From contig JADGPS010000023.1 of NCBI GenBank assembly GCA_017882285.1, forward strand, positions 1 to 40,515: 40,515 bases of DNA. Direction: 5' to 3'. This document shows positions 6,030 to 37,587 of the stretch, piece after piece. Position 1 is the stretch's first letter, and each line of letters starts with the position of its first letter. A program made the position numbers and the translations under genes. The notes below the pieces were generated by a model. The model did not search any database. It was given only the letters and a program-made list of their open reading frames with translations, and was not told the origin of the DNA. The DNA comes from Paludibacter sp. GTDB lineage: Bacteria; Bacteroidota; Bacteroidia; Bacteroidales; Paludibacteraceae.

Positions 6030-6096
6030 ATGTAACATATAGGAAATAATATGTAATGTGGCGGTAAATAAAAACAATGTTGTAATAATATATTTG
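6030..6096 (+). promoter_or_regulatory. susC1 promoter with candidate HTCS operator
   Basis: TATATTTG (6089-6096) fits the -7 consensus TAnnTTTG. ATGTAAC (6030-6036) ends exactly 52 bases before it, and a variant ATGTAAT (6051-6057) starts 21 bp downstream of the first. No -33 TTTG is present at the usual spacing, as expected for a promoter that needs an activator. The 52-base spacing recurs upstream of susC2 and of the GH10 gene at 37683. Confidence 0.6.
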
Positions 6097-6216
6097 CATA
6101 AAATAAAACAATGTATAATTTAAAAGAATAAAATCACGTGAAGCTAAAACAAATAAAACTTTAAAATCAAATTCAAAGAGTATTAAACAATGAATTAAAT
6201 AATGAATTAAAAATCT

Positions 6217-9200
6217 ATGAAAGTCACAATTAAAAAGCAAATTATTTTTCTGTTCTTTATGCTGTTAATTCCAATATGGGCTGTCGCACAGGTAATGACA
6301 GTAAAAGGGACAGTAAAGGATGACAAAAGTGAAGCATTGGTAGGCGTGAGTATTCTCGAGGCAGGATCTACTACAAACGGAACAATAACCGATGTGAATG
6401 GTAATTTTGTAATTAAAGTAGCCAGAAACGCAAAACTCAATATTTCGTATATTGGTTACAATAAAACTGTAGTAAATGTTAATGGCCGCTCAGTTATCAA
6501 TATTGAACTTGAAGAACAATCGAGATCATTAAACGAAGTTGTCGTGGTTGGTTATGGTAATATGAGGCGTACCGACTTGACTGGAGCTGTAACTTCAGTA
6601 AGTAGTGAAGCTATAGATAAATCGGTTGTAACATCGGTAGATCAGATACTTCAAGGGCGTGTAGCCGGGGTGCAAGTACAGCAAAACTCAGGTCAGCCGG
6701 GTGCCAGCTCATCTATCCGAATTCGTGGTATTAACTCTGTATCCGGAAGTAATGAACCGGTATATGTAGTTGATGGTGTTATTATTGATGGTAATTCCGG
6801 TTCAGATACATCAAATCCGCTTTCATCCATCAACCCATCAGATATTTTGTCGATGGATATTTTGAAAGATGCTTCTGCGACAGCTATTTATGGCTCACGT
6901 GGAGCTAACGGGGTGATTATGATTACCACTAAACATGGTAAAAGTGGTGAAGCTAAAGTAAGCTACAACGGTTATGTTGGTTTGCAGGAAATGCCAAAGA
7001 AATTGGATATGTTGAATTTGCAACAATATGCATACCTCAAAAACGCACGCTCGGCTGCCGGCATTGTACAACCCGATAACTCTTTTGTACGACCTGATTT
7101 ATTAGGTGCAGGTACTGACTGGCAAGATGAGTTGTTCAGTAAGGCACTTATGACAAGCCATAACTTATCTATTACCGGAGGATCTGATAAAAGTACGTAC
7201 GCTTTTGGGGCTGGTTATTTGAATCAGGATGGTATCGCAACAGGTTCCGGCTTCGAGCGTTTCACTTTACGTGCTAATATTGATACACAAGTAAAAAAAT
7301 GGTTGAAATCAGGTGTAAATCTTGCCTTGAGCAATTCAACTCAGAAACTGACTGTTTCTGATGAATCGTTGATTAAAACAGCACTTAGGCAGATACCTTC
7401 AGTAGCTGCCCGAAACGCTGATGGTACATTCGATGGTCCTCAAACTACTGATTTTGTTGTGACTAATCCGCTCGGTATGGCATTGTTGAAAGAGAACTAC
7501 AATGAAAAAACTGCAATTCGTGGAAATATCTATTTGGAAGCTACCATTCTAAAAGGACTTACCTATAAAACAGAATTATCATTTAATTTTGGAATGGATA
7601 ATACTTATAAATTCAGTCCTTCTTATACATTTGGCGCACTCGTAAATAATGTCATCGAATCTGAACGTTCCAAATCATACAGCAAATACTGGGTGCTTAG
7701 AAACCTGATTAATTATAACACTACATTTGCAAAGGTACATAGTGTGAATCTGATGTTGGGACAGGAAGCCCAGAAATCGGGATGGGAGTATTTGGACGGT
7801 TACAGAAGTGGTTTTGTCAGCAATGTAGCTCACGATTTGAATATGGGAGATGCTACTACGGCTAAAAATCAAGGTAGTAGTTATTCCAATACACTCTCAT
7901 CTTATTTCGGACGTTTGTTTTATTCTTATGATGATAGGTATTTACTTACTACCACTATGCGATATGATGGTTCGTCTCAATTAGCTGAAGGTCACCGTTG
8001 GGCATGGTTTCCCTCTGCCGCTTTGGCATGGAAGGTGTCGAACGAATCATTTATGAAAGAAATTCCTGCTGTATATAACCTGAAACTTCGTTTGGGATGG
8101 GGGTTAGTTGGTAACCAAAATGTACCAAATTATGCTTACACGTCTTTATTGACATCGGTACAGACCGCCAACTGGGGAACCGGTTTATTGAGCGGAAATA
8201 CTGCAAACCCTAATTTAGCATGGGAAACAACTTCTTCGAGCAATATTGGTATAGATTTGGGTTTATTTAAAAATAGAATTGAGCTTACGGCAGATGTATA
8301 TTATAAGAGAACAAATAACTTGTTATTACAATTGCCATTACCAGCTTATGTAGGTACTACTGGTATGGGTTCGACCAGTGCACCTTGGGGTAATGTTGGG
8401 TCAATTGAGAACAAGGGGATAGAATTGGCATTAAATACTGTGAATGTCGAAAAAAAGAACTTTAGTTGGAAGTCAAATTTTGTATTTTCGCTTAATCGTA
8501 ACAAAGTTCTTCAGTTGAATTCTGAAACAGGAGTCATAAACGCAACTATTTCGGAAGGTTCAGAAACAAATATCGTAACACGTACTGAAGTAGGGCAACC
8601 TATAGCTCAGTTCTATGGTTATAAAGTGATTGGACGTTTTGAAAAAGCCACCGATTTTTATTACAAAGATGCTAACGGAGTTATCAAACCAACTGCTCTC
8701 CCAACGGGAATGGCCATTGGTAAAAATGGCGTGTGGATAGGTGATTATATTTTTCAAGATGTAAATAAAGACGGTGTGATTGACGATCAGGATCGTACTT
8801 ATATAGGAAATCCTGAGCCTAAATTTACTTACGGTATTGGCAATACCTTCGTCTATAAAAACTGGGATTTGACAATTTTTCTGACCGGTTCCTATGGTAA
8901 TAAGGTTGTGAATTATCAACGTCGTTGGTTTGAAAATCCGGCTTCGAACAATAATGTACTATATGAAGCAACACAATATGCAGTATTGAGTAAAATAGAT
9001 CCAGCCGGTCCTGATGATTACAGAAATATTTACATTTCAGGTGGAGACCCCTATATGCCTCGTATGGCTGCTTCGTCAGCTTCTTCTACGTCAAACTTCC
9101 GTTATAGCGATCGGTTTTTGGAAGATGGTTCGTACTTGCGTATACAAAATGTGTCGTTGGGCTATAGCTTACCACATGCTTGGACGAAAATGCTGAAAAT

Positions 9201-9372
9201 AGAAAATCTGAAGATATATGCCAATCTTCAAAACTTGTACACATTTAGTGTTTACAAAGGATACGATCCTGAAATTGGTTCAATGAATCAGAATGTGTTG
9301 CTGACGGGTATCGATAATGCCCGTTATCCTTCACCACGTATTTATACCTTTGGATTAAACCTGACATTCTAA
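6217..9372 (+). CDS. susC: SusC-like TonB-dependent transporter (first pair)
   Basis: Outer-membrane importer for xylan oligosaccharides, energised by TonB. Residues 1-25 are a signal peptide ending AVAQ. A carboxypeptidase-D-like domain follows (about 28-105, with VKGTVKDDKSEALVGVSI). NEVVVVGYG near residue 107 is the usual SusC linker and TonB-box region. The plug carries IRIRGINS, the SusC signature LKDASATAIYGSRGANGV and then the barrel, which ends in the aromatic terminus LNLTF. The length of 1051 residues is normal. The next gene, a SusD lipoprotein, starts one base after the stop, and the two would form the usual bivalve complex. It is the first gene of unit A and has a dedicated promoter upstream. 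Confidence 0.97.
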   Translation: MKVTIKKQIIFLFFMLLIPIWAVAQVMTVKGTVKDDKSEALVGVSILEAGSTTNGTITDVNGNFVIKVARNAKLNISYIGYNKTVVNVNGRSVINIELEEQSRSLNEVVVVGYGNMRRTDLTGAVTSVSSEAIDKSVVTSVDQILQGRVAGVQVQQNSGQPGASSSIRIRGINSVSGSNEPVYVVDGVIIDGNSGSDTSNPLSSINPSDILSMDILKDASATAIYGSRGANGVIMITTKHGKSGEAKVSYNGYVGLQEMPKKLDMLNLQQYAYLKNARSAAGIVQPDNSFVRPDLLGAGTDWQDELFSKALMTSHNLSITGGSDKSTYAFGAGYLNQDGIATGSGFERFTLRANIDTQVKKWLKSGVNLALSNSTQKLTVSDESLIKTALRQIPSVAARNADGTFDGPQTTDFVVTNPLGMALLKENYNEKTAIRGNIYLEATILKGLTYKTELSFNFGMDNTYKFSPSYTFGALVNNVIESERSKSYSKYWVLRNLINYNTTFAKVHSVNLMLGQEAQKSGWEYLDGYRSGFVSNVAHDLNMGDATTAKNQGSSYSNTLSSYFGRLFYSYDDRYLLTTTMRYDGSSQLAEGHRWAWFPSAALAWKVSNESFMKEIPAVYNLKLRLGWGLVGNQNVPNYAYTSLLTSVQTANWGTGLLSGNTANPNLAWETTSSSNIGIDLGLFKNRIELTADVYYKRTNNLLLQLPLPAYVGTTGMGSTSAPWGNVGSIENKGIELALNTVNVEKKNFSWKSNFVFSLNRNKVLQLNSETGVINATISEGSETNIVTRTEVGQPIAQFYGYKVIGRFEKATDFYYKDANGVIKPTALPTGMAIGKNGVWIGDYIFQDVNKDGVIDDQDRTYIGNPEPKFTYGIGNTFVYKNWDLTIFLTGSYGNKVVNYQRRWFENPASNNNVLYEATQYAVLSKIDPAGPDDYRNIYISGGDPYMPRMAASSASSTSNFRYSDRFLEDGSYLRIQNVSLGYSLPHAWTKMLKIENLKIYANLQNLYTFSVYKGYDPEIGSMNQNVLLTGIDNARYPSPRIYTFGLNLTF

Positions 9373-9373
9373 T

Positions 9374-11038
9374 ATGATGAAGAAAATGAAAACATTAAAT
9401 AAATTATTTTTAGGACTAATCATAACAACCCCTCTGTTATTAAACAGTTGTAGTGATAGCTTCCTTAATATTCAGCCAAACGACAAATTAACACTGGATA
9501 ATTTCTTCCAATCTGAATCTGATCTTCAGGCCTCTACAGCAGGCTTGTATAACAAGGTTTGGTTTGATTTTAACGATAAGTTCTATTACGGCTTAGGCGA
9601 TGGGCGAAGCAACAATATGTATGCTCCTTATTCGGATTATATCTATCCTTTCAGCGATTTGACTGAAACTTCACTTACCGGCCCTTTGGTATTAGCTTGG
9701 GGATCGTTTTACAATGTTATCGGACAATCAAATAATGTGATTAATAATATTCGCAAGAATTCTAAGAATGTTACTGAAGATCAGAAAAATGCAGCTATTG
9801 CCGAAGCTCGTTTCATGAGAGGAACTGCATATTGGTATCTTGCTTCATTGTGGGGTAACGCTATTATTGTAGAAGATAATACCGTGCTAGTAAATCACCC
9901 GGTAGTAAATACAAGCCCACGAAAAGACGTGTTTGAATTTGCAATGCGAGATTTAGAATTTGCGGCAAAATATCTACCGGCTACTGTTAGCCAAGCTGGT
10001 CGTTTGACAAAATGGAGCGCCTTTGGGATGTTGTCACGTGTTTATTTGTCTTACTCTGGTATTAGTGTTGACCCAAATAGTGGTGTTAGAGATCAGGCTT
10101 ATCTTGATTTAGCTGCGAAAGCCGCTAAAAAAGTTTCCGAAGAAAGTGGTTTGGCACTGATGAGTAGCTATGCTGATTTATACAAAATAGAAAACAACAA
10201 TAATCCTGAATCACTTTTTGCACTTCAATGGGTACCTAACGGCGATTATGGGGTAACCAATACGCAACAGGCTTACTTTGCTGTTGCCTCGGAAATTACC
10301 GGTGACGATGCTGCATGGGGTTATTATACAATGGCTTCGGCGAACGTGATGTCTGAGTATGAAACTGCTGATAGCCTTCGTAGAAAAGCAACCTATATGG
10401 CTTACGGCGACCATTATGCTGAATTGGAAAAAGCAAATGGAGGTTATACCTATACTGTATTACACAATAGCAAAAAATGCTGTAACATCAAAAAAGGTGT
10501 GGTGGGTAATACTACCGATAATAATGGGAAATCCACAAGAATGAATTCAGCTTTAAATACTTACATGCTCCGTTTAGCTGAGGTGTACCTGAATTATGCT
10601 GAAGCTGTTCTTGGAAATAATTCATCTACTTCTGATGCTACTGCGCTGCTTTATTTCAATAAAGTTCGTACTCGTGCAGGGATACCGGCTAAAAACAGCA
10701 TTTCTTACGAAGATATTCGTCACGAACGCCGTGTAGAATTTGCGATGGAGGGTCAGTACTGGTACGATGAGGTTAGCCGTGCTTATTATAAACAACAGGA
10801 AGTGCTTGACCGCATAAATACCGAGAAACGTGATTTTATTGATTTATACGATTATGACAAAACGTCTAATACATGTACTATAAAGCTTAACACTACAGCA
10901 AGAGCCGTAAATCAGGCAACTGCACAAAGAATGTTATTGCCATATCCTGAATCTGAAGTTGTACAGAATCCTTTGCTTAAACAAGCACCGGTTAAATACA
11001 CTTTCACCGAAGACAAAATAACAGACTTATTTAATTAA
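9374..11038 (+). CDS. susD: SusD-like glycan-binding lipoprotein (first pair)
   Basis: Surface lipoprotein that caps the SusC barrel and binds the incoming glycan. The N-terminus has a lipoprotein signal with lipobox LLNSC, followed by acidic SDS, which fits surface export. The all-helical TPR-like SusD fold is indicated by IAEARFMRGTAYWYLASLWG near residue 140-160. The C-terminal RagB/SusD segment has NKVRTRAGIP, HERRVEFAMEGQYWYDEV and a final LLPYPESEV. The 554-residue length is typical. ATGATGAAG at 9374 starts one base after the susC1 stop; the second or third ATG could also serve. The natural ligand is presumably xylan or xylo-oligosaccharide, by context. Confidence 0.96.
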   Translation: MMKKMKTLNKLFLGLIITTPLLLNSCSDSFLNIQPNDKLTLDNFFQSESDLQASTAGLYNKVWFDFNDKFYYGLGDGRSNNMYAPYSDYIYPFSDLTETSLTGPLVLAWGSFYNVIGQSNNVINNIRKNSKNVTEDQKNAAIAEARFMRGTAYWYLASLWGNAIIVEDNTVLVNHPVVNTSPRKDVFEFAMRDLEFAAKYLPATVSQAGRLTKWSAFGMLSRVYLSYSGISVDPNSGVRDQAYLDLAAKAAKKVSEESGLALMSSYADLYKIENNNNPESLFALQWVPNGDYGVTNTQQAYFAVASEITGDDAAWGYYTMASANVMSEYETADSLRRKATYMAYGDHYAELEKANGGYTYTVLHNSKKCCNIKKGVVGNTTDNNGKSTRMNSALNTYMLRLAEVYLNYAEAVLGNNSSTSDATALLYFNKVRTRAGIPAKNSISYEDIRHERRVEFAMEGQYWYDEVSRAYYKQQEVLDRINTEKRDFIDLYDYDKTSNTCTIKLNTTARAVNQATAQRMLLPYPESEVVQNPLLKQAPVKYTFTEDKITDLFN

Positions 11039-11057
11039 CTATTAAACTGAAGAAATA

Positions 11058-12440
11058 ATGAAAAGTATATTTTCAAATAAAAACATTTGGACAATCGGTT
11101 TACTTGTAAGTTTGTTCGTCGGCTCATTGGGCTTTTCGTCCTGTAAGCAAGATGTTGACATCGCAAGTACACCGATAAAAGTAGATTCTGTATTCCTTGA
11201 AGATGCTACATCTTCGGTAATTGACAGAAAGGTAACATTTGCCCGCTTAGGGTCCTTAATCCGTATTCAAGGTTCGGGTTTCACTGGAATGAAAAAGGTA
11301 TATATCAACGGATATGATTCATATTTTAGTGTTACGATGGTTACGGATATATCTATGTTAATTCAGGTTCCGGGAAAAGCTCCTATTGTAGACGCTGATA
11401 CCACGGTGCGTAATACCATTCGTTTGGTGAAAGATGGTTCTGAATTTATATACAAAATTCAAATCCGTAGTGGAGCACCAACATTGACTAGTATTTCAAA
11501 CACAATGCCGGCTGCCGGTGATACCATCACCATTTTTGGAACGGGATTGACTGAAATCAAAAAAATTACATTCCCAGAAAATGTGGTTGTTACTGTAGGA
11601 ATTGTTTCAGATAAGGCTGGAACATACTGTAAAGTGGCTGTACCTGCCGGACTAACGAAAAGCGGCTCTTTAAAGGTAGAAGGATCGAATGGTGGGGTGT
11701 ATTCACCAGCCTATTTTAATTGCAAATCGGGTGTTATACTTGATTTCGATGGTGTAGGTTCACAAGGCTATTGGGGATGGACAGCAACAGGAAGTATGAT
11801 CGATGCCTCTGATTTGGAATCTGCTGTTATCGGAACAAACGGTGTAAAATCACAAGGAAAATATTGTGCTCACCGCCCGTCACGTATCACTCAGTTTGCT
11901 GCAGGTAAAAACCGTCTTTCAGAGGTTTGGACAGCAGGCAACGGTGACGACTGGCGTGGACGTTTTACTTCGCTTATCCCGGCCACTACGACCGTAAGTC
12001 AGTGTGCTTTTCAGTTCGATATTTATGTGCCGCAAGCATGGTCGAATACAGGTTTCCTTAAAATCTGCCTGATCAACAATTTTAATGGGGGCGAATGGAC
12101 AGATAAATGTTATAACTATGTACCTTGGCTTGTAAATGGTATTGTTACTCCATTCCAAACGTCAGGTTGGACAACAGTAACTATTCCGTTTAGCTATTTT
12201 TATACTTATGCGGATACTAATTCTTCATATACATTCGAAAATATACTGGCTGCGCGTGAAACTGCTACGTATCAGAATTTTGGAATCTTTTTTGAAAACT
12301 CGGATATAAAGTTGCAGAATGTTACAGGAAACGTCAAAGATGCAAATACAACACTTACATCGGCGGCTACTTCAATAAGTGTATATACTGATAATTGGCG
12401 GGTAGTTCCATTGTCGAGCCCAACTTACACAGATTATTAA
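11058..12440 (+). CDS. Surface glycan-binding protein (SGBP), IPT/TIG domains plus binding domain
   Basis: A non-catalytic surface lipoprotein (lipobox GFSSC, then KQD) that would hold xylan near the SusCD complex. After the signal, Ig-like IPT/TIG folds run to about residue 220, with SGAPTLTSISNTMPAAGDTITIFGTGL as a clear TIG start. From about residue 226 a larger beta-sandwich begins with VILDFDGVGSQGYWGW. It is rich in Trp and Tyr and resembles the C-terminal ligand-binding domain of SGBP-B proteins. It sits 19 bases behind susD1, the position where these proteins occur in many PULs. The fold assignment is by pattern; xylan as ligand is inferred from the neighbours. Confidence 0.85.
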   Translation: MKSIFSNKNIWTIGLLVSLFVGSLGFSSCKQDVDIASTPIKVDSVFLEDATSSVIDRKVTFARLGSLIRIQGSGFTGMKKVYINGYDSYFSVTMVTDISMLIQVPGKAPIVDADTTVRNTIRLVKDGSEFIYKIQIRSGAPTLTSISNTMPAAGDTITIFGTGLTEIKKITFPENVVVTVGIVSDKAGTYCKVAVPAGLTKSGSLKVEGSNGGVYSPAYFNCKSGVILDFDGVGSQGYWGWTATGSMIDASDLESAVIGTNGVKSQGKYCAHRPSRITQFAAGKNRLSEVWTAGNGDDWRGRFTSLIPATTTVSQCAFQFDIYVPQAWSNTGFLKICLINNFNGGEWTDKCYNYVPWLVNGIVTPFQTSGWTTVTIPFSYFYTYADTNSSYTFENILAARETATYQNFGIFFENSDIKLQNVTGNVKDANTTLTSAATSISVYTDNWRVVPLSSPTYTDY

Positions 12441-12565
12441 TCAGGGGTCTGACAGATTCAATAAAAGACTCTAAGTAAAGAAACGAGCATGATTCAATTA
12501 GATAATAGGGGTAAATAACTCATCATGCGGGTTACACAACCTATAACTTTTAAAATTTAATACAG

Positions 12566-14212: not shown

Positions 14213-14243
14213 GCCTCTCTCTAAAGATGATATAAAAAAGAAA

Positions 14244-14276
14244 AACTTTCCCAAAGTTCTAAACTTTGAGAAAGTT
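14244..14276. repeat. Imperfect inverted repeat behind the GH10 gene
   Basis: Arms AACTTTC-C-CAAAGTT (14244-14258) and AACTTTG-A-GAAAGTT (14262-14276) pair as 7+7 bp around one C.A mismatch with a 3-base loop. No T tract follows, so it is not a standard terminator. A related, more degenerate sequence lies at 35143-35161, so it may be a dispersed repeat. A further short hairpin (TACCC/GGGTA) is at 14302-14315. Confidence 0.6.
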
Positions 14277-14363
14277 GAAAATCATTCAAATCCCTTTAAA
14301 GTACCCAAGAGGGTAGGGGTAAATTATACCGATTGCACAAATAATATAGTCCAATTTCGACCC

Positions 14364-14378
14364 TGCCTGCCGCAGGCA
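14364..14378. repeat. Short GC-rich palindrome
   Basis: TGCCTG and CAGGCA enclose CCG in otherwise AT-rich DNA. GC-rich palindromes of this kind occur as small dispersed elements in Bacteroidota spacers (recalled, not checked). No second copy was noticed in this window. Confidence 0.4.
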
Positions 14379-14430
14379 AGTTCGTCTTATTGCACTATTT
14401 ATTTGTATGCATCGGCATTAACAACAGTAA

Positions 14431-14462
14431 ACGTATAAAACAGTTTGGACTGTTTTATACGT
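14431..14462 (+). promoter_or_regulatory. Perfect 14-bp hairpin just upstream of the GH35 gene
   Basis: Arms 14431-14444 (ACGTATAAAACAGT) and 14449-14462 are exact reverse complements around the loop TTGG. The downstream arm contains only TTTT and no U tract follows, so it is at best a leaky terminator. It ends 19 bases before the ATG at 14482. It could lower GH35 expression relative to the upstream genes, protect a processed mRNA end, or be a protein-binding palindrome. Confidence 0.55.
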
Positions 14463-14481
14463 ACAATTGGTATTACTTAAG

Positions 14482-16416: not shown

Positions 16417-16503
16417 TTGTAACAGAGATGTAACAAATGTAACCAAAAGAAAATTATTTGATATGTCCCAAATTGAATATAACTTTTGATTATTGTAAGT
16501 TTG
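16417..16503 (+). promoter_or_regulatory. susC2 promoter with candidate HTCS operator
   Basis: TAAGTTTG (16496-16503) fits the -7 consensus, and a TTG at 16473-16475 lies 20 bases upstream, near the expected -33 position. Three heptamers precede it: TTGTAAC (16417-16423), ATGTAAC (16428-16434) and ATGTAAC (16437-16443). The last ends exactly 52 bases before the -7 box and the first 72 bases before it. Clustering and register support a regulator-binding site. Confidence 0.65.
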
Positions 16504-16647
16504 TTACATAGAAAAATCAATTTATTAATTTAATTAAACAAATACATTATGAAGACATGAAAAACTAAAGAAATTATTAAAAAATTACCTTTTATTTAAA
16601 AAATACTTATAAAAAATGAATTAAAAATCAAAAAAAGAATTCTGATC

Positions 16648-19600
16648 ATGAAAATCACAAAACTATTTAGGTCAATTGGCCTATTATTTCTGTTCTCATT
16701 ATTTTCACTTACTGTAAATGCGCAATCAATTTTTGTTAAAGGAGTTGTGAAATCTTTTGCAGGTGAAAGTTTAATTGGTGTTAATGTAACAGAAGTTGGA
16801 GCTACCAATGGAACTGTTACCGACATAGATGGTAATTATACTATTAAAGTACCTTCTCAATCTAAATTAAAGATTTCATATTTAGGTTACAAAACACAAG
16901 TAATAGATGTAAACGGGAAAACATATTTTAGCGTTGTTCTTGAAGAAGATAACAAAGCTTTAGATGAAGTTGTAGTTGTAGGATATGGTAATCAACGGAG
17001 AGAAGCTGTAACTGGTTCAGTTGCTTCAGTAAAAGGAGATGTGATGCGTGAAGTGGCATCTTCTAATATTACGCAGGCTTTACAAGGTCGCGTTGCCGGT
17101 GTGGAAATGTCACAAACCTCCTCTAAACCGGGCGCTGAAATGCAGATCCGTATTCGCGGTACACGTTCGCTAACTGCCAGTAACGATCCGTTGGTGGTAC
17201 TCGACGGTATCCCTTTTGCTGGAAACATCAGTGACATCAACCCGAATGAAATCAAGAGTATAGACATCCTGAAGGATGCTTCGGCAACTGCTATCTACGG
17301 ATCGCGCGGCGCTAACGGTGTACTCTTGGTAACAACTAATAGGGGACAAAACGGCCAGAAAGCGAGGATAACCTATAATGGCTACTATGGTGCAAATGAG
17401 GTGTTTTCCAAATTTGACATGATGGACGGAGAGAAGTTCGCCGCGATGCGAGCTTATGCCAATATGCCTGCATACGTAAATAATACAGCGGATGAAATTC
17501 CGGGAACAAATACCGATTGGCAAGGCTTGTTTTTTAAAACCGGTGCTGTACAAAGCCATGATGTAGGCGTTTCAGGCGGAACAGATCGCGGTGCTTATAC
17601 CTTTGGAGTAGGCTATTACAAAAATGAAGGTGTAGTACCCTTGGAAGGGTTTAGTCGTATTTCGATGCATGCCAGCATTGATCAGGAAGTAGGTAAAATC
17701 TTCCGCATCGGTTTCACTACCAACAGCAACTACAATGTGACCGAAGGAGCCAGTTCGGGAGGATTGTATCAAGTATTACAGAATGACCCGCTTCTCTACC
17801 CCTATAATGCTGATGGCTCTTGGAAAAGAACTGTAGATATGCCGGCAGATAAAGGTATATGGGTCTATACAAGAGATGTTGTGCAGGCTAATAAAGACCG
17901 TATGCTTAGCCAAACTAAAGGCTTCGGTTCTTATAATACAATCTATGGCGAGGTGAAAATACCCGGCGTAGAAGGTTTGAAATATCGTGTCAATTTAGGT
18001 TTGAACTTCCGTATGTCAACCGGAGGAAGCTACACTGGACAAGGAATAAACAACGCCTCAGCAACCAATCCTTCCTCAGCTTCTGTCAGTAACTCGTTGA
18101 GAACTAATTGGGCAATTGAAAACTTACTTACCTACGACCGCACCTTTGCCGATAAGCATCAAATAAATGCCGTAGCTATGTACTCCGCAGAAGAAACCAT
18201 GTACAATCAGTCACGGATGACTGCAAAGGGTGTTGCCGAAAACTTTCAATGGTATAATTTGGGTATGACTGATGGTGAAAGGTCTATTCTCCCAGGCGAT
18301 CAACTATATGAGAAGAGCGGCTTGATGTCATATATGGGACGTGTAATGTATTCGTACGACAGTCGCTATATGATCTCGGCTACCGTCCGTTCCGATGGTT
18401 CCTCACGATTGGCACCCGGACATCAATGGCATACCTATCCGGCCGTATCTGTGGGGTGGAATGTAAAAAAAGAAAATTTTATGCAAAATGTAAATTGGCT
18501 CGACAATCTTAAACTTAGAGTAGGCTATGGAGAGACCTCCAATCAGGCCGTTGCTCCCTACGCAACACTGGGTGGTTTGAGTACCCGCCCTTATAACTTC
18601 GGCGATGCGAGCGCTAATTTTGTAACAGGTACGTATGTAAGTACACTGCCTAACACTGCTTTAGGATGGGAATATTCTAAAACATGGAACTATGGTGTGG
18701 ATTTCTCTCTGCTGCATAACCGCCTGTCCGGTACATTTGAGTATTATGTAACCAACACCAAAAATCTTTTGCTGAGTGTTAACCTTCCTCAAACATCGGG
18801 CGTAGGTAGTTACATGGCAAATGTAGGAGAAACTCAAAACAAAGGTTTTGAATTTTCGCTTAATGGCATTATACTGGACAACCTCAATGGTTGGACCTGG
18901 ACTGCAGGCGTCAACGTGTATTCTAACAAGAACAAAATTGTATCCCTTGCTTCAGGAAACCTTAAAGATGAGGGTAACGCATGGTTCGTAGGACACTCCA
19001 TCAATGTAATCTATGCCCCCAAAAAGATAGGTCTTTGGCAGGAAGGCGACCCCTATTTGAATATCCTTGAGCCGGGTGGAAACGTAGGTATGATTAAGGT
19101 TGAATATCTTGGCGATTATTACAAACAAGGTGATGTTATACCGAAAGGAAGTAATGTAGGAGACCCTGTAAGAGCAATAGATGGAGGCGGTAAAGACCGT
19201 CAGATCCTTGAAGTAGATCCCGACTTTCAGGGTGGTTTCAATACCACAGTGGCGTACAAAGGATTTGACCTGACCGTGATTGGTGCGTTCAAAAGTGGCG
19301 GTACACTCGTCAGCTCACTTTATTCTGCCAACGGTTACCTCAATATGTTGTCTGGACGTAGAGGCCAGGTGAATGTGGACTATTGGACACCGGAAAATAC
19401 CGGTGCAAAATATCCTAAACCAGGTGGCTTAATAAGCGGTGACAATCCGAAATACGGTAATACCCTGGCTCTCTTTGATGCTTCGTATGTGAAAATACGC
19501 GCTATAACTTTGGGATATAATTTCAATATAAAGGCGGTTAAAGAGTTTGGTATTCAAAATTTGCGGATTTATACTACTGTTCAGAATCCATTTGTGTTGT

Positions 19601-19764
19601 TCGCTCCTTATACGAAAGAAACAGGTATGGATCCCGAAACGAACTCCTATGGCGATGAAAATGCGGCAACAACAACAGGTTTAGTTAACAGACGTATCCT
19701 GACCATTGGTACCAACTCACCTGCCATTCGCAGCTACATGTTTGGTGTTAGTTTAACATTTTAA
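16648..19764 (+). CDS. susC: SusC-like TonB-dependent transporter (second pair)
   Basis: Outer-membrane oligosaccharide importer of 1038 residues. The signal peptide ends LTVNAQ near residue 26, followed by the carboxypeptidase-D-like domain (VKGVVKSFAGESLIGVNV). DEVVVVGYG lies near residue 108, then the plug with IRIRGTRS and LKDASATAIYGSRGANGV. The barrel ends in VSLTF. It shares family features with the first SusC, but the barrels differ strongly, so the pairs probably take different chain lengths or decorations. Sampled lines suggest a composition step: about 35% GC in the first 350 bases, about 50% from roughly 17040 on, and a low-GC patch near 19490-19560. SusD2 follows after 13 bases. 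It heads unit B. Confidence 0.97.
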   Translation: MKITKLFRSIGLLFLFSLFSLTVNAQSIFVKGVVKSFAGESLIGVNVTEVGATNGTVTDIDGNYTIKVPSQSKLKISYLGYKTQVIDVNGKTYFSVVLEEDNKALDEVVVVGYGNQRREAVTGSVASVKGDVMREVASSNITQALQGRVAGVEMSQTSSKPGAEMQIRIRGTRSLTASNDPLVVLDGIPFAGNISDINPNEIKSIDILKDASATAIYGSRGANGVLLVTTNRGQNGQKARITYNGYYGANEVFSKFDMMDGEKFAAMRAYANMPAYVNNTADEIPGTNTDWQGLFFKTGAVQSHDVGVSGGTDRGAYTFGVGYYKNEGVVPLEGFSRISMHASIDQEVGKIFRIGFTTNSNYNVTEGASSGGLYQVLQNDPLLYPYNADGSWKRTVDMPADKGIWVYTRDVVQANKDRMLSQTKGFGSYNTIYGEVKIPGVEGLKYRVNLGLNFRMSTGGSYTGQGINNASATNPSSASVSNSLRTNWAIENLLTYDRTFADKHQINAVAMYSAEETMYNQSRMTAKGVAENFQWYNLGMTDGERSILPGDQLYEKSGLMSYMGRVMYSYDSRYMISATVRSDGSSRLAPGHQWHTYPAVSVGWNVKKENFMQNVNWLDNLKLRVGYGETSNQAVAPYATLGGLSTRPYNFGDASANFVTGTYVSTLPNTALGWEYSKTWNYGVDFSLLHNRLSGTFEYYVTNTKNLLLSVNLPQTSGVGSYMANVGETQNKGFEFSLNGIILDNLNGWTWTAGVNVYSNKNKIVSLASGNLKDEGNAWFVGHSINVIYAPKKIGLWQEGDPYLNILEPGGNVGMIKVEYLGDYYKQGDVIPKGSNVGDPVRAIDGGGKDRQILEVDPDFQGGFNTTVAYKGFDLTVIGAFKSGGTLVSSLYSANGYLNMLSGRRGQVNVDYWTPENTGAKYPKPGGLISGDNPKYGNTLALFDASYVKIRAITLGYNFNIKAVKEFGIQNLRIYTTVQNPFVLFAPYTKETGMDPETNSYGDENAATTTGLVNRRILTIGTNSPAIRSYMFGVSLTF

Positions 19765-30264: not shown

Positions 30265-30331
30265 GCGTTAATTTAATTTATAAAAATCAAATAGAGTTTC
30301 ATTTAATCTGCTAAAATAGAATTAAAAATAG

Positions 30332-32980
30332 ATGAAAACTGGTATAAAAAGAATTGCTTTTGCAATCATTATCTCGTTAACTTTTACTTCTTTCAAACCT
30401 GTAGAACCGTATCTGAATACAAATCTGAGTTTCGAAGAGCGAACCAATGATTTAGTTTCCCGTCTCACTTTAGAGGAAAAAGTTCAATTGTTGCGTTATG
30501 ATTCTCCGGAAATAAAACGATTGGGTATACCTGCTTATAATTGGTGGAACGAATGTTTGCATGGTGTTGCCCGTTCGGGACTGGCTACCGTTTTTCCTCA
30601 GGCTATCGGCATGGCCGCCATGTGGGATACCGATCAAATGTTTGTGAATGCCAATTCAATTTCGGATGAAGCCCGTGCCAAGCATCATGAGTATGTACGT
30701 CAGGGGAAACGAGGTATTTATGAAGGATTGACATTCTGGACTCCAAATATTAATATTTTCAGGGATCCACGTTGGGGCCGTGGCATGGAAACGTATGGTG
30801 AAGATCCCTTTCTGACTGCAGAATTAGCTATCCCTTTTGTTAAAGGATTGCAAGGCGATGATCCTAAATATCTTAAACTTGTAGCTACTGCCAAACACTT
30901 CGCAGTTCACAGCGGTCCCGAATCGACTCGGCACTCCTTCGACGTGTGGCCTAACGACTACGATATGGCTGAAACGTATCTTCCTCACTTCAAACGTACC
31001 GTGCAGGAGGCAAATGTTTATTCGGTGATGTGCGCTTATCAACGATTTAAAGGCGCACCCTGCTGTGGCAATAAATATCTGGAAGATTTGGTTCGTAATA
31101 AATGGGGATTTCAGGGTTATATTGTTTCCGATTGTTGGGCGATACGTGATTTTTTCGAAAAAAATGCCCATGCTGTGGTGGCAACTCCAGAAGAAGCCGC
31201 AGCTATGGCTGTAAAGGCCGGGACTGATTTGAATTGCGGAAATACCTATTATCCTTATCTGATTGGTGCCGTAAAACAGGGACTTATTACTGAGTCTGAA
31301 ATAGATGTTTCAGTAAAACGGGTCATCTTGGCACGTATGAAATTAGGACAATTCGATCCGGATTCGATGGTTAAATATTCGCAGATGCCTATTAATGTGG
31401 TTGATTGCGAAAACCACCGTTTGCTTGCACTTCAATCGGCACGGAAATCGATGGTGCTATTGAAAAATGAAAACAATATTCTTCCTTTTTCAAAACAAAT
31501 CAAAAGAGTAGCCGTTATTGGTCCTAATGCCAACGATAACGAAGTTCTGTTAGGAAATTATAACGGTTATCCTGCCATTAACATAACTCCTTTTGAAGGA
31601 ATTAAACAAAAATTGCCTGATGCAGAGGTTAATTATGCCCAGGGTTGTGAATTAGCCGAAAATTTTCCATTTTTATCGGCAGTACCGGCTGATTTTCTTT
31701 TTACCGATAAGTTGGCTAAACAAAAAGGATTGAATGCGGAGTATTTCGATACTGTCGATTTGAAGGGTAAACCGCTACATAAACGGATTGATCCGAATGT
31801 CGATTTTACCTGGCGTACCAAAGCACCTTTCGATGATTTAAAATATGAACGGTATTCGGTTCGTTGGAAAGGTGTGCTTATCCCCAAAGAAACAGGCGAA
31901 TATGTTTTAGGAGGCGAAGGTTTAAGCGGATTTAAACTTTTTGTCAATGGGAAACAGATTTTGGATTATAAAAATAATAAACATCATGCCCGCAAAATTT
32001 TCCAGCCGATGAATCTGATTGCCGGGAAAGCGTATCACATTAAAATTGAATACAGTCAGGAAGATAATGAATACTCCATTATCCGTTTTTTGTGGGAATC
32101 ACCCAAAACAAATTTGAAAAACCAAGCTGTCGAGTTGGCTAAAAAATCCGATTTAGTGGTACTTTGTATGGGATTGAGTCCGCTGTTGGAAGGTGAAGAA
32201 ATGAAAGTAAATGTAACTGGTTTTTATGGAGGCGACCGGACGGATATTAAGTTGCCCGAAATGCAGACCGATTTGATTAAAGAAATTAAGAAACTCGGAA
32301 AACCAACCATTTTGGTTTTATTGAACGGAAGCGCATTAGCTTTCAATTGGGAGAATGAAAATATACCGGCTATTTTGGAAGCGTGGTATCCGGGGCAAGC
32401 CGGTGGACAAGCCATTGCCGATGTGATTTTTGGTGATTATAATCCTGGTGGACGGTTACCGCTGACTTTCTACAAGAGCATTGACCAGATTCCGGCTTTC
32501 GATAATTACGATATGAGTGGCAAAACCTATCGTTACTTTAAAGGAGAACCTCTCTATGAATTTGGTTACGGGTTAAGCTTTACGAATTTTGAATACTCGG
32601 TGAAACAAATGCCGGAAACAATTAAAACTGGTGAAAATATCGATGTTTCGGTTGATGTTAAAAACATGGGAAAACTGGATGGAGATGAAGTCGTTCAGTT
32701 GTATGTTTCATTGCCTGAAAGTAGATTACGGGTTCCAATCCGTTCACTTCAGGGTTTTAAACGCATCCATTTAGCAGCAGGAGAAACAAAATCTGTGAAT
32801 TTTACTCTGAAACCCGCCCAGTTTGCCGGACGAAATGCGGATAATGTGGCTTTGGTTGAGCCAGGAGTTGTTCAGATTTCTGTCGGTAGAAAACAACCTG
32901 ATGTTAAATGTATAGCATCCAGGCAAGTTGTGCAGCAAAATGTGATGATGACCGGAGATGCTTTTACAGTAAATGAGTAA
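30332..32980 (+). CDS. GH3 beta-xylosidase with PA14 insertion
   Basis: Exo-acting beta-xylosidase of 882 residues with a weak signal peptide (about 1-22), so probably periplasmic. The N-terminal barrel has WWNECLHGVARSG, DPRWGRGMETYGEDP, ATAKHFAVHSGPE and nucleophile D267 in YIVSDCWAI. The alpha/beta sandwich is split by a PA14 domain at about 460-600 (KGLNAEYFDTVDLKG to IIRFLWESP). It resumes with LVVLCMGLSP, GEEMKVN, WYPGQAGGQAIADVIFGDYNPGGRLPL and ends in a fibronectin-III-like domain (YGLSFTNFEY, DGDEVVQLYVS). PA14 insertions are common in GH3 and can restrict access to long chains. It probably releases xylose from oligosaccharides trimmed by the neighbouring enzymes. Confidence 0.95.
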   Translation: MKTGIKRIAFAIIISLTFTSFKPVEPYLNTNLSFEERTNDLVSRLTLEEKVQLLRYDSPEIKRLGIPAYNWWNECLHGVARSGLATVFPQAIGMAAMWDTDQMFVNANSISDEARAKHHEYVRQGKRGIYEGLTFWTPNINIFRDPRWGRGMETYGEDPFLTAELAIPFVKGLQGDDPKYLKLVATAKHFAVHSGPESTRHSFDVWPNDYDMAETYLPHFKRTVQEANVYSVMCAYQRFKGAPCCGNKYLEDLVRNKWGFQGYIVSDCWAIRDFFEKNAHAVVATPEEAAAMAVKAGTDLNCGNTYYPYLIGAVKQGLITESEIDVSVKRVILARMKLGQFDPDSMVKYSQMPINVVDCENHRLLALQSARKSMVLLKNENNILPFSKQIKRVAVIGPNANDNEVLLGNYNGYPAINITPFEGIKQKLPDAEVNYAQGCELAENFPFLSAVPADFLFTDKLAKQKGLNAEYFDTVDLKGKPLHKRIDPNVDFTWRTKAPFDDLKYERYSVRWKGVLIPKETGEYVLGGEGLSGFKLFVNGKQILDYKNNKHHARKIFQPMNLIAGKAYHIKIEYSQEDNEYSIIRFLWESPKTNLKNQAVELAKKSDLVVLCMGLSPLLEGEEMKVNVTGFYGGDRTDIKLPEMQTDLIKEIKKLGKPTILVLLNGSALAFNWENENIPAILEAWYPGQAGGQAIADVIFGDYNPGGRLPLTFYKSIDQIPAFDNYDMSGKTYRYFKGEPLYEFGYGLSFTNFEYSVKQMPETIKTGENIDVSVDVKNMGKLDGDEVVQLYVSLPESRLRVPIRSLQGFKRIHLAAGETKSVNFTLKPAQFAGRNADNVALVEPGVVQISVGRKQPDVKCIASRQVVQQNVMMTGDAFTVNE

Positions 32981-33006
32981 TTTTGCAAAATAAGCTGTTT
33001 GAAATT

Positions 33007-35124
33007 ATGTATAAAAGGCTCATTGTTTGTATTTTTGTTTTGGGATTTATATTTAGTTCCCATGCCGAGGATGGTAGTCAACTTTGGTTGCGGTTTCATT
33101 CCGTTCATCCTCAAAAACAACTTTTTTCGGGAGTGACTGGTACTACTGCTACGACAGCAATGACAGAATTGCAACATGACTGGATGGAGATGACAGGAAA
33201 ACCACTGTACCAGACTAATAAAATTGAGAATAATTCATTGGTTATCGGAACGATTCAATCCCGGAATATTCGTTCGTTCGGATTATCAAAGGAACTTATT
33301 CAATTGGGAGACGAAGGTTATGTAATCAAAACCATTCAGCAAATGAATAAAAAAATTACGGTAATTGCCTCATCAACAGATAAAGGTCTGCTTTATGGTG
33401 TCTTTCACCTGTTACGATTAATCCAGACAGATCATTTATCACAAAACCTGAATATCTCAGAGAAACCGTCTTATCAGGTTCGCGTTCTTAATCATTGGGA
33501 CAATCTGGATCGTACTGTTGAACGCGGTTATGCCGGACGTTCTATCTGGCGTTGGGATGAATTGCCCGGGAAAATATCGCTTCGTTACAAAGCTTATGCC
33601 CGCGCAAATGCTTCTATCGGTATTAATGGAACAGTGTTGAATAATGTGAATGCAGCACCGGAAATTCTGTCGGACACAAACCTGCAAAAAGTAAAAGTGA
33701 TTGCCGGCGAATTGCGTCCCTATAACATCAAAGTTTATTTGGCAATCAATTTTTCATCACCGGCCAAATTAGGAGGTTTATCAACTTCCGATCCCATGAA
33801 TGCACAAGTACGTGATTGGTGGAAGGATAAAACCAACGAAATTTATCGTATGATTCCCGATTTCGGCGGTTTTTTGGTGAAAGCCAATTCTGAAGGTCTG
33901 CCGGGCCCGCAGGATTATGGACGGACGCATGCTGATGGTACCAATATGTTGGCCGATGCACTTAAATCCCATGGTGGTATTGTGATGTGGCGGGCTTTCG
34001 TGTATGCACCAACAGGAGACGATCGTGCCAAGTTAGCTTACGAAGAATTTGTTCTGTTGGATGGACAATTCCGTGATAATGTGATTATTCAGGTTAAAAA
34101 CGGACCGATTGATTTTCAACCGAGGGAACCTTTCAGCCCTTTATTTGGTGGTTTGAAAAAAACGAAATTAATGCCGGAGTTTCAGATAACCCAGGAATAT
34201 TTAGGGCAGGGAAATCATTTGGTTTTTTTATCACCAATGTGGAAAGAATGTTTGGATGCCGATACATATTGTAATGGAGCAGGATCAACTATTGCAAAAA
34301 TAACAGACGGAACTTTGTATGGAAATAAAATTTCAGCCATTGCGGGTGTCGCCAATATCGGAGAAGATCCAAACTGGTGCGGTCATCATTTTGCGCAGGC
34401 AAACTGGTATGCTTTCGGTCGTTTAGCGTGGAACAACAGCCTGATTTCGAAGCAGATTGCACAAGAATGGATAAAAATGACTTTCTGCTCATCTGATTCT
34501 TTTGTAGAACCTATCACTGATATGATGCTTCGTTCAAGGGAAGCTGCTGTAGATTACATGATGCCACTGGGACTTCACCATTTATTTGCCTGGGAACATC
34601 ATTATGGACCTCAACCTTGGTGTTACATACAGGGAGCACGACCCGACTGGTTGCCATCTTATTATCACAAAGCTGATTCAGTTGGTTTGGGATTCGATAG
34701 ATCAACAAGTGGGAGTAATGCAGTTTCACAATATTATTCCCCTTTACGTGAAGTATATAACGATCTATCAACTTGTCCTGAGAATCTTGTTTTGTGGTTC
34801 CATCATGTTCCGTGGGATTACCGCATGAAAAACGGATTTACCATGTGGGATGAACTGTGTTATAAATATGATTCCGGATTAAAAGAAGTGCGTGATTTCC
34901 AGAAAATTTGGGATAAAATGGAAAAATATGTTGATACTCAACGTTTCAAGGGAGTTCAGTCTAAACTTCGGATTCAGGCACACGATGCAGTTTGGTGGAA
35001 AGATGCCTGTCTGCTATATTTTCAAACTTTTTCAAAACGACCGATTCCCTACGATATTGAACGACCGGTTTATGAATTAGGAGATTTGAAGAAGATAAAA
35101 TTGAATATGAAAAGTCATAATTAA
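33007..35124 (+). CDS. GH67 alpha-glucuronidase, secreted
   Basis: Cleaves (4-O-methyl)-glucuronic acid from the non-reducing terminal xylose of short xylo-oligosaccharides. The ATG at 33007 gives a signal peptide ending SSHA; a TTG at 32983 is less likely. GH67 order is clear: a small N-terminal domain, then the barrel from YQVRVLNHWDNLDRTVERGYAG. FLVKANSEGLPGP has acid E296, GPIDFQPREP has D369, and FQITQEYLG has E397. The two basic residues are 28 apart, as in characterised family members (recalled). A helical C-terminal domain (WFHHVPWDYRM) follows. The 705-residue length is typical. It complements GH115 at 21877. It begins 26 bases after the GH3 stop. Confidence 0.95.
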   Translation: MYKRLIVCIFVLGFIFSSHAEDGSQLWLRFHSVHPQKQLFSGVTGTTATTAMTELQHDWMEMTGKPLYQTNKIENNSLVIGTIQSRNIRSFGLSKELIQLGDEGYVIKTIQQMNKKITVIASSTDKGLLYGVFHLLRLIQTDHLSQNLNISEKPSYQVRVLNHWDNLDRTVERGYAGRSIWRWDELPGKISLRYKAYARANASIGINGTVLNNVNAAPEILSDTNLQKVKVIAGELRPYNIKVYLAINFSSPAKLGGLSTSDPMNAQVRDWWKDKTNEIYRMIPDFGGFLVKANSEGLPGPQDYGRTHADGTNMLADALKSHGGIVMWRAFVYAPTGDDRAKLAYEEFVLLDGQFRDNVIIQVKNGPIDFQPREPFSPLFGGLKKTKLMPEFQITQEYLGQGNHLVFLSPMWKECLDADTYCNGAGSTIAKITDGTLYGNKISAIAGVANIGEDPNWCGHHFAQANWYAFGRLAWNNSLISKQIAQEWIKMTFCSSDSFVEPITDMMLRSREAAVDYMMPLGLHHLFAWEHHYGPQPWCYIQGARPDWLPSYYHKADSVGLGFDRSTSGSNAVSQYYSPLREVYNDLSTCPENLVLWFHHVPWDYRMKNGFTMWDELCYKYDSGLKEVRDFQKIWDKMEKYVDTQRFKGVQSKLRIQAHDAVWWKDACLLYFQTFSKRPIPYDIERPVYELGDLKKIKLNMKSHN

Positions 35125-35291
35125 CCGACAATTTTTCAAAAATTCTAACCTTTAGAAAGTTATAATAATCTTAAACGGGAATGTTTACTGCAATAGAAGT
35201 AATCGAAGATAAAGAATTAAATGTAAACTGATCCGAAATAATACATATCCTGTACTGAAAAATAGTTTAACAAAAAATAGAAATAAAAATT

Positions 35292-37346
35292 ATGCAAAAA
35301 GTTTTTGAAGTGAAAAATCCGGACTTTGAATTAAGTCCATTTACCGGGATGACGAAAAGGCATTATATTGAATGTGCTAAATATATTCTGGAAAGAGCCT
35401 TTAAACACGTTGATTCATTAGAAACATCCATATCATTTCCTACCGTTCCGGGGAAAACATATCCACAGCCAAACGCTCCTGAATGGCGTTATCGTGCTGC
35501 AGATTTTGAAGCCCTTGAACGAACTTTCAATCTTGCCGGACCACTTATTCATAATGATCCAGAAGTAACCATAAACAACATAAAATTGCGTGACTATTAT
35601 AGTTTGCATATATACAATGCATTTACGCCTGGCCATGCTAACTCAATACCTCTACCCGAAGAACTTCCAGACTCAACGTATCAGTTTACTTGTGAATTTG
35701 GTGGTTTGTTTAAAACCTTGCTTCTTATGCCGGATACTATTTGGTCGGGTTACACGCAAAAGCAAAAAGACGAGATGGTTGAATGCATTTCAAAATGGGG
35801 ACACCACAGAACAACACAGAATAACTGGCGTATATTTAATGTTACAACCCTTTCCTTCCTTAAAAAACACGGTTATGAAATTGATGATGAATTATTAAAA
35901 AGTCATCTTTTATGGATTGCTTCTTATCATTCGGGCAATGGATGGTATCTGGAACAAACTTACAATTACTATACAATTAGTTTATTTATTGTATATTTAA
36001 CAATATGGAACAGAACCTTTGGTGATGAGTTTTACCCTGAAATCGCTGAAACCATTGAAAAATCCGCCCAAGAATTATATAAAACGTATGTTAATTTCTT
36101 CGGAAGGGATGGTTATGTAAATATGTGGGCAAGAAGCATCACTTACAGAACCTGGATATCCGGAGGTTTCCCTGTTTCTTTTTTATTGAAAGGAGGATCG
36201 CCATTGGATCCCGGAATGGCCAGAAGGCTTTGTTCCGGTTCTTTACTCCAGTTTGTAACTCGTGAAGAATTTTTTGAAAATGATATACCGAGCCTTGGTT
36301 ATTACAGACATACCGAATATATTTTACAAAACTATAGTTGTGCCGGTAGTCCTTTTATCATGTTTATCCCTTTTATTGCCTTGGCATTGCCCGATGATTC
36401 TCCTTTTTGGACAGCCAAAGAAAATGAAGGTTTTTGGAAAGAGCTTGGAAACGAAACAAATGTTGAAGTTCTGAATAATCCGGGAATTGTACTTGCGAAC
36501 CATGGAAAAACAGGAACTTCCGAAATAATACCCGGTAAAGTTTACTACCAGGACCCAAATTATTCCAAACTTGCATACAACACACATTTCCCTTGGGAGG
36601 ATCATAACCCACAAGGTGGAACTGCTATGGAATACAGTTTCAGAAGCCTCGATCCAAGAGACTTACGTGGTGATGATATTAATTTTTATCTTACAGGTCA
36701 TAAATTACAAAATAGTTCTGAAAAGAACACTGTATATACCACTTCGGAAAGTATGCTCTATAATGGCGTCAGGAAGGATGTGATTTATAGGCAGGCTATT
36801 ATGCGAAAACCACCCAATAATGGTGTAGGATATATTATTGATCTGGCTGAAATTATTATTCCCGGAGGTATAATCAGAGTTGACCGCTCACGCATGGCAT
36901 TTGAATATGAGCTAACATTAGGAAACTATGGTTTACCGCATATAAAAGGGGTAAAAGCAGTTGTTAAGCAATTTGAAGATGGCAATAAGAAAGTGATTAC
37001 CGCATCCATCCCAGGAAGAAAAGTGGCATTGATAACCTATAACGGATGGGATGAAGTGAGAAGTTTAACTCATGAGGGACGAAATGCGGAAGCTGATGAA
37101 AGTACAGTTGTGTATGCTCATAAACAAAGAGTGGAAAAAAATCCTCCAATGGAATTGATGGTATCTGTTTTACTTCATAAAATGGATGATACGGAATGGA
37201 CCAAGGAAGAATTATCACCCATAAAAAGCTTTGAAATTATGGATATAACCCCTACTTTTTCAGCTTTGGGTGCAAATATTATCCTTAACAATAACAAAAA
37301 ATATGAAGTAGATTTTATTGATATAGATGGATACCGTTCTTGCTAG
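35292..37346 (+). CDS. DUF2264 family protein, cytoplasmic
   Basis: A 684-residue protein with no signal peptide. The N-terminal half (about 20-375) is an alpha/alpha-barrel-like domain of the DUF2264 type, with NPDFELSPFTGMTKRHY, WRYRAADFEALERTFNLAGPL, WRIFNVTTLSFLKKHG and DGYVNMWARSITYRTWISGG. The C-terminal half (about 380-680) is beta-rich. Many such two-domain proteins are polysaccharide lyases or exo-glycosidases. DUF2264 members occur in glycan PULs, and I recall a link to glucuronidase-type glycosidase families, but I cannot confirm it. As the last gene of unit B, behind two alpha-glucuronidases, it may process glucuronic acid-containing or other decorated products in the cytoplasm. 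The catalytic residues are not known to me. Confidence 0.75.
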   Translation: MQKVFEVKNPDFELSPFTGMTKRHYIECAKYILERAFKHVDSLETSISFPTVPGKTYPQPNAPEWRYRAADFEALERTFNLAGPLIHNDPEVTINNIKLRDYYSLHIYNAFTPGHANSIPLPEELPDSTYQFTCEFGGLFKTLLLMPDTIWSGYTQKQKDEMVECISKWGHHRTTQNNWRIFNVTTLSFLKKHGYEIDDELLKSHLLWIASYHSGNGWYLEQTYNYYTISLFIVYLTIWNRTFGDEFYPEIAETIEKSAQELYKTYVNFFGRDGYVNMWARSITYRTWISGGFPVSFLLKGGSPLDPGMARRLCSGSLLQFVTREEFFENDIPSLGYYRHTEYILQNYSCAGSPFIMFIPFIALALPDDSPFWTAKENEGFWKELGNETNVEVLNNPGIVLANHGKTGTSEIIPGKVYYQDPNYSKLAYNTHFPWEDHNPQGGTAMEYSFRSLDPRDLRGDDINFYLTGHKLQNSSEKNTVYTTSESMLYNGVRKDVIYRQAIMRKPPNNGVGYIIDLAEIIIPGGIIRVDRSRMAFEYELTLGNYGLPHIKGVKAVVKQFEDGNKKVITASIPGRKVALITYNGWDEVRSLTHEGRNAEADESTVVYAHKQRVEKNPPMELMVSVLLHKMDDTEWTKEELSPIKSFEIMDITPTFSALGANIILNNNKKYEVDFIDIDGYRSC

Positions 37347-37479
37347 CTAATTAGTAAAAAATAAAACTGAAAAAGATTAGTTCAGACTTTTTATGTTAAA
37401 ATAAATACTGTTATGAACAGTGACAAAATGCAGATTGTAAATTGATATGGAATCTAAATATTTGAATGTTTAGCAGTAA

Positions 37480-37587
37480 ATGTAACTAAAGACTGATGAT
37501 TTGAAAGAAAATAGTGATAAATGTAACCATTAAACAACTATATGAACGCATGAAGCAATTCTCTGAATTTGAAATGATATATATTTG
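37480..37587 (+). promoter_or_regulatory. Promoter of the T9SS unit with candidate HTCS operator
   Basis: TATATTTG (37580-37587), identical to the susC1 -7 box, lies 95 bases before the GTG start. ATGTAAC at 37521-37527 ends exactly 52 bases upstream of it. A second ATGTAAC at 37480-37486 starts 41 bp before the first, about four helical turns. No -33 TTTG is seen at the usual distance. The shared 52-base spacing ties this unit to susC1 and susC2 control. Confidence 0.6.

Follow-up and report, generated by a model that had tools for sequence, protein, structure and literature searches.

Among PUL regulators, HTCSs form a major class, and many of them have no known operator. XynR of Prevotella bryantii, attributed to Miyazaki et al. 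2003, is said to be among the systems closest to the one considered here. The text of Ravcheev et al. (2013, PMC3878776) describes the predicted HTCS operators of Bacteroides thetaiotaomicron as direct repeats with half-sites that lie on average 21 bp apart, leaves 20 of the 36 HTCSs of this species without a predicted motif and, figures and supplementary alignments aside, states no promoter distance. As given in the text of PMC11253607, receiver-AraC fragments of BT4124 and BT4663 bind susCD promoters in gel shifts. The promoter of the Bacteroides main sigma factor is described in the text of PMC7366714 as TAnnTTTG at -7 with TTTG at about -33.

Here we consider a xylan locus of Paludibacter sp. 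that occupies a stretch of 40,515 bases (the window), which is the entire contig C137 of a 143-contig, 3,179,187-base (3.18-Mb) assembly. The initial annotation had proposed that the heptamer ATGTAAC, placed 52 bases before the box TAnnTTTG, is bound by one activator. With a probability of roughly 0.86, the comparative data suggest that this heptamer is a half-site of the predicted operator of the xylan HTCS encoded at 1604, and one sugar-sensing protein very probably switches on several sets of xylan-degradation genes together.

The xylan locus and its four promoters

Pfam searches with 19 window proteins indicated that the units of the window make up a xylan PUL. The HTCS is followed by SusCD1 with a surface glycan-binding protein and a GH10, then by the SusCD2 unit (GH115, MFS transporter, GH10, GH43, esterase, GH3 and GH67), and then by a GH10 with a T9SS-type tail (Table 1). 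The product of 1604-5803 belongs to the HTCSs by definition, since Reg_prop, Y_Y_Y, HisKA, HATPase_c, Response_reg and HTH_18 all exceed the Pfam cut-off.

Table 1. Genes, half-sites and presumed -7 boxes of the window, with the gap-42 sites; gap, bases between half-site and box
Feature	Position	Strand	Remarks
GH43 gene (with GH43_C2), fourth unit	1..1449	-	Divergent; start at 1449; runs off contig
Presumed -7 box of divergent GH43	1474..1481	-	TACCTTTG
GH43 half-site ATGTAAC, gap 72	1554..1560	-	21 bp from GTGTAAC; just upstream of HTCS start
GH43 half-site GTGTAAC, gap 93	1575..1581	-	Just upstream of HTCS start
HTCS, presumed activator	1604..5803	+	Reg_prop/Y_Y_Y sensor, HisKA and HATPase_c, receiver, AraC-type HTH_18 (Pfam)
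susC1 half-site ATGTAAC, gap 52	6030..6036	+	
susC1 half-site ATGTAAT, gap 31	6051..6057	+	21 bp downstream of the 6030 half-site
Presumed -7 box of susC1	6089..6096	+	TATATTTG
susC1 gene	6217-9372		
susC2 half-site TTGTAAC, gap 72	16417..16423	+	
ATGTAAC upstream of susC2, gap 61	16428..16434	+	Outside the 20-21 register
susC2 half-site ATGTAAC, gap 52	16437..16443	+	
Presumed -7 box of susC2	16496..16503	+	TAAGTTTG
susC2 gene	16648-19764		
Xylanase half-site ATGTAAC, gap 93	37480..37486	+	
Xylanase half-site ATGTAAC, gap 52	37521..37527	+	
Presumed -7 box of GH10 xylanase	37580..37587	+	TATATTTG
GH10 xylanase gene with T9SS-type tail	37683-39017		
Gap-42 sites	C11:12019, C16:4242, C47:647; loci L101-L130		C11, C16 and C47 belong to the own genome

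The three matches to ATGTAAC-N52-TAnnTTTG reported by the initial annotation at 6030, 16437 and 37521 lie exactly there and are the only ones in the window, while none of 100 shuffles reached three. The additional copies or variants that it had listed at gaps 31 (susC1), 61 and 72 (susC2) and 93 (xylanase) are present as well; the proposed spacing, mostly in multiples of about two helical turns, holds for gaps 31, 72 and 93, which step by 20-21 from 52, and not for gap 61. A fourth operator, absent from the initial annotation, was found at the divergent GH43 gene. All four window promoters carry a perfect TAnnTTTG, and these boxes are presumably -7 boxes, judging by their match to the published consensus.

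Each window promoter has two rungs of an incomplete ladder: 52 and 31 at susC1, 72 and 52 at susC2, 93 and 52 at the xylanase, and 93 and 72 at GH43. A direct repeat of about 21 bp is found in three of the four (period 21 at susC1, 20 at susC2 and 21 at GH43), and the xylanase promoter has only the rungs at 93 and 52, 41 bp apart. An ATGTAAC copy on the opposite strand (16503-16509, minus) overlaps the end of the susC2 -7 box.

The heptamer is not unique to promoters, as the initial annotation had remarked: six of its 13 exact copies in the window are intragenic. Their total is only mildly unusual (7.1 expected; 3 of 100 shuffles reach 13), which would suit an origin by chance in AT-rich intergenic DNA. 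However, the other seven copies fall within 2745 intergenic bases, where 1000 shuffles of the intergenic DNA gave a mean of 0.41 and never reached seven. Furthermore, a scan of all 3,179,187 bases of the assembly returned exactly three matches to ATGTAAC-N52-TAnnTTTG, all in the window and none at unrelated genes, with 0 matches for the reversed-pattern control; when gaps 23-53 were allowed, 10 matches were obtained in this genome, the three at gap 52 being again those of the window. Together with the conservation at orthologous promoters and the rungs at 72 and 93, which go beyond any shuffle (see below), the comparative data speak strongly against chance, and we give this explanation next to no weight.

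The half-site ladder and its conservation

An operator made of a single heptamer was ruled out, because the extra copies at 31, 72 and 93 are accounted for by a direct-repeat ladder with a step of 20-21 bp. The rungs of this ladder are TGTAAC-like half-sites at gaps of 31, 52, 72/73 and 93/94 from the presumed -7 box. We aligned 19 promoters on the box, 18 of them chosen by the 52/53 rung and the GH43 promoter by 93/72; the occurrence of the 52/53 rung in 18 of 19 is therefore by construction, while the other rungs played no part in the selection of these 18. The rung at 72/73 was present in 13 promoters and that at 93/94 in 12, whereas that at 31 reached 5 of 6 letters in only five. In 500 shuffles the count for a pair of adjacent gaps never exceeded 6 and that for a single gap never exceeded 5, so the 72 and 93 rungs are secure, unlike the 31 rung taken by itself. 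Six aligned susC2 promoters showed an identity of 0.59 at the 72/93 rungs and 0.58 at 31, against 0.38 in the other columns.

In the half-site consensus, ATGTAAC is followed one turn on by an A-rich stretch at +12 to +15, as the two helix-turn-helix motifs of an AraC domain would lead one to expect. A -33 TTTG (gap 16-24) is not enriched, being found in one of the 19 ladder promoters against 1.7 expected from shuffles, which is in line with activator-dependent promoters. For a class II-like activator that overlaps the -33 region, this scarcity and the fixed 52/53 register would be expected, but the 31 rung, which lies beside that region, has a low count.

Orthologs of the HTCS (53-68% identity) were detected in 13 other genomes of the genus out of 47 searched, which makes 14 with the own genome; another was found in a different family (G058, HTCS 51%, gaps 52 and 31). 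Comparison with these relatives showed that motif and spacing are kept in the ortholog-bearing genomes at susC1, susC2, GH115, MFS, GH10 and GH43 promoters. All four susC1 orthologs of at least 60% identity with upstream DNA retain the site, three at gap 52 (G010, G019 and G029, the SusC-like frame of G019 at the end of C282 having been read by eye) and one at 53 (L159). The same is true of all six susC2 orthologs selected in this way, at gap 52 in G029, G033, G063, G066 and G071 and at 53 in G014, where the site precedes an MFS gene that stands before susC2. Genes with missing upstream DNA (susC1 of G013 on C198, susC2 of G025 on C114 and of G064 on C41) were excluded, and homologs of 43-44% in G013, G019 and G027 lie outside the ortholog counts.

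Sites also occur before GH115 in G033, before a GH10 with T9SS tail in G025 (an ortholog located via the motif, not by protein search), before a divergent susC and before an MFS operon in G003, and, in G065, before a gene oriented divergently to an HTCS copy; G064 has rungs 93/72/52 at a promoter downstream of its HTCS. The fourth unit is kept in G063, with a partial GH43 ortholog (76.5% over 230 aa) and rungs at 74/53/31. In L159 from Dysgonamonadaceae, where the HTCS is 65% identical over residues 610-1389, gaps of 53 and 32 precede the susC1 ortholog of 60%. No site was detected in the available DNA of G013, which possesses the ortholog and in which the susC1 contig begins 45 bases before the gene. 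Some targets lie far from the regulator: HTCS and susC2 are on C30 and C14 in G033, and on C2 and C1 in G066. G065 harbours three relatives of the xylan HTCS (C127, C200 and C82; 59, 53 and 41%) and offers a natural test of whether paralogs share or split operators.

The preference for gap 52 was also seen in spacing counts. In 10 genomes picked for an HTCS ortholog, this gap was the most frequent of 31 (37-67), with 18 of 105 matches (P 8e-9 under a uniform model). The total for these gaps did not exceed the reversed control (105 vs 109), so that only specific gaps are enriched. Genus-wide, 55 matches at gap 52 were counted in 48 genomes against 13 for the reversed control; 32 of them lie in 34 genomes without the ortholog and 23 in the 14 genomes with it, where 16 precede xylan-PUL or HTCS-adjacent genes and seven are elsewhere.

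These distributions bear on the possibility that another AraC-family regulator, encoded elsewhere, binds the ladder instead of the HTCS at 1604. The own genome holds 13 matches to this HTCS, and similar half-sites at gap 52 are met in the genomes without the ortholog; one of these sites, L077 in G005, adjoins another HTCS-like gene (39%) and a SusC-like gene. Nevertheless, a gap of 52 or 53 at xylan genes or at genes next to an HTCS tracks the ortholog, being found in 13 of the 14 same-genus genomes that have it, own included; an HTCS-like gene is situated within 1.5 kb of seven of 29 gap-52 loci; the HTCS is the sole regulator among the 19 Pfam-scanned window proteins; and a 21-bp direct repeat is the published HTCS type. 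We therefore consider a different regulator unlikely. The proposal that the HTCS at 1604 couples all units is thus supported by the uniqueness of the pattern in the own genome, by the gap-52 peak and by the conservation together with the ortholog, with the correction that its predicted operator is a ladder and not one heptamer.

Gap 42 and the register at other HTCS loci

Gap 42 is as enriched as gap 52, with 15 of the 105 matches in the 10 genomes and 62 matches against 14 in the control over 48 genomes, 28 of which have at least one match, some of them intragenic. Many of these sites have TGTGAATT before ATGTAACTTATT, with GTGTAAC 21 bp on, and belong mostly to non-PUL genes (proteins judged by eye); SusC-like and HTCS-like genes were each found within 1.5 kb at two of 30 gap-42 loci. 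The idea that gap 42 represents the same regulator one helical turn nearer to the box was set aside on the grounds of the other consensus and the other genes, which is a judgement and not a proof. Gap 42 looks like a different regulon.

Some gap-52 sites resemble ATGTAACATTTCTCC with TTGAAAT 21 bp on (L061, L073, L081, L083, L084 and L085); they precede long secreted-looking proteins in G002, G004, G011, G018 and G068 and are perhaps the operator of another regulator. Among the matches listed, a dispersed short repeat, TGTAACTCGTAACTATTTACTTGTAAC with close variants, appears in many contigs of G063, and TGTAACTGACGAAGGnATTGTAAC with close variants is repeated in the own genome at C1:73364-74221 and C24:31408-31950. 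The spacing of TGTAAC pairs in five genomes was excluded from the results because the dispersed repeats of G063 swamp the signal.

For a wider comparison, 80 HTCS loci (26-65% identity) were fetched by protein similarity and not by motif, L159 and L181 being members of the clade of the window HTCS. A scan of 1190 geometries over 353 promoter-side regions of these loci, with one half-site mismatch permitted, placed TGNNAC-N15-TGNNAC-N31-TAnnTTTG (geometry 15/31) at the top, with 19 sites in 17 of the 80 loci against a mean of 0.18 and 4 for the next geometry. The distance from upper half-site to box is then 52 bases, which matches the window. Over the whole 80 loci, the pair TGNNAC-N15-TGNNAC before TAnnTTTG gave 26 matches within gaps 0-109, and gap 31 accounted for 14 of these; none of the twelve other spacers from 9 to 21 exceeded 6 matches in total or 1 at gap 31. 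When the columns outside the scored ones were clustered at 60% identity, the 19 sites gave 18 clusters, with one pair 81% alike. At least two A at +13 to +15, unused in selection, occur in 33 of the 38 half-sites, compared with 4 to 21 of 38 at six other offsets.

Of the 17 loci that contain sites, 16 carry the label Prevotella, Prevotellaceae, Xylanibacter or Paraprevotella, and one Prevotella locus (L162) has four such promoters, as well as relatives of the GH115, GH10 and GH3 genes of the window. The promoter-side regions scanned in the other 63 loci contain no 15/31 site; one locus of Parabacteroides (L158, HTCS 47%, with xylan genes) has none in the whole-locus scans either. L159 and L184 (Bacteroides oleiciplenus) have gap 32 in place of 31. 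In 20 other HTCS loci from the genus and order (130 kb), geometry 15/31 was found once and was not the top one (mean 0.05, best 2).

The half-site letters vary among the HTCS loci: TGTAAC in the window, and TGAAAC, TGATAC and others in the Prevotella-type ones. The inner bases of TGNNAC seem to help set the identity. A register unique to the window HTCS was ruled out, since other HTCS promoters share it with other half-site letters and gap-52 matches occur in genomes without the ortholog. Many HTCS-driven promoters seem to have this register in common, in which 52 bases separate the box from the upper half-site of the proximal pair. It follows that the fixed 52-base spacing, which the initial annotation had taken as a sign of one activator, is insufficient alone, given the share of genus-wide matches in genomes without the ortholog, the shared register and the equal enrichment of gap 42.

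A register that recurs in many loci, genomes without the ortholog included, would also be left if RNA polymerase recognized a general promoter or upstream element with no specific activator involved. Such an element is very unlikely, because the half-site letters differ between HTCS loci, the enrichment is confined to specific gaps and the rungs recur every 20-21 bp like a protein array. Returning to HTCS operators, we lean slightly towards one grammar for HTCS-driven promoters across Bacteroidales: TGNNAC-N7-AAA every 21 bp, a distance of 52 or occasionally 53 bases from the upper proximal half-site to the -7 box, a missing -33 element, inner NN and flanks that code which HTCS binds, and in some promoters a second tandem pair at 72/93. 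If this is true, HTCS operators and regulons would be readable from sequence alone.

Proposed regulation and comparison with known systems

We suppose that a periplasmic oligosaccharide signal would lead to phosphorylation of the receiver and free the AraC-type domain, which would bind as direct-repeat dimers, proximal at 52 and 31 and distal at 93 and 72, with all rungs on one helix face. The proximal dimer would extend to the -33 region and bring in polymerase that carries the main sigma factor, at a fixed position, while the distal dimer would contribute cooperativity. In this way the four units (SusCD1, SusCD2, secreted xylanase and GH43) would be switched in concert by a single regulator. 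The role of the HTCS as an activator, its dimers and their proximal and distal functions are suggested by the geometry, by the 21-bp repeats described in the text of PMC3878776 and by the binding described in that of PMC11253607. Since the rungs at 1554-1581 directly precede the HTCS start at 1604, their occupation may affect HTCS expression too.

In the texts of PMC3878776, PMC11253607, PMC10766802, PMC11107044, PMC12125979, PMC7366714, PMC6874557, PMC12877422, PMC11501099 and PMC4942465, a fixed distance between HTCS site and -7 box is not stated; nor were the four-rung arrangement and the TGTAAC half-site of a xylan HTCS found in the literature searched, supplements and figures aside. The promoter register may be a general rule. 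If fixed, it would make operator finding a spacing-constrained search, would predict regulon members distant from the regulator (as susC2 is in G033 and G066), and would allow HTCS contact with polymerase to be tested directly by spacing mutants.

With the Bacteroides main sigma promoter, as described in the text of PMC7366714, the window promoters share TAnnTTTG and differ in the -33 TTTG, which is not enriched. BT4124 and BT4663 resemble the proposal made here in that an HTCS output domain binds susCD promoter DNA of its own PUL, which is predicted for the window; they differ in belonging to other PULs, in B. thetaiotaomicron, and the text of PMC11253607 gives no half-site register. The direct repeat of 21 bp is the known part of the HTCS operator, and the window ladder is, on sequence evidence, a candidate for a real operator of this known type, at which binding and activation are probable. 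Like the B. thetaiotaomicron operators described in the text of PMC3878776, it has two half-sites on one helix face upstream of PUL operons, with an AraC-type HTCS encoded nearby, whereas it differs from them in the number of its rungs, which reaches four in two tandem pairs, in standing at a fixed distance from the -7 box and in the letters TGTAAC of the half-site of the putative xylan HTCS.
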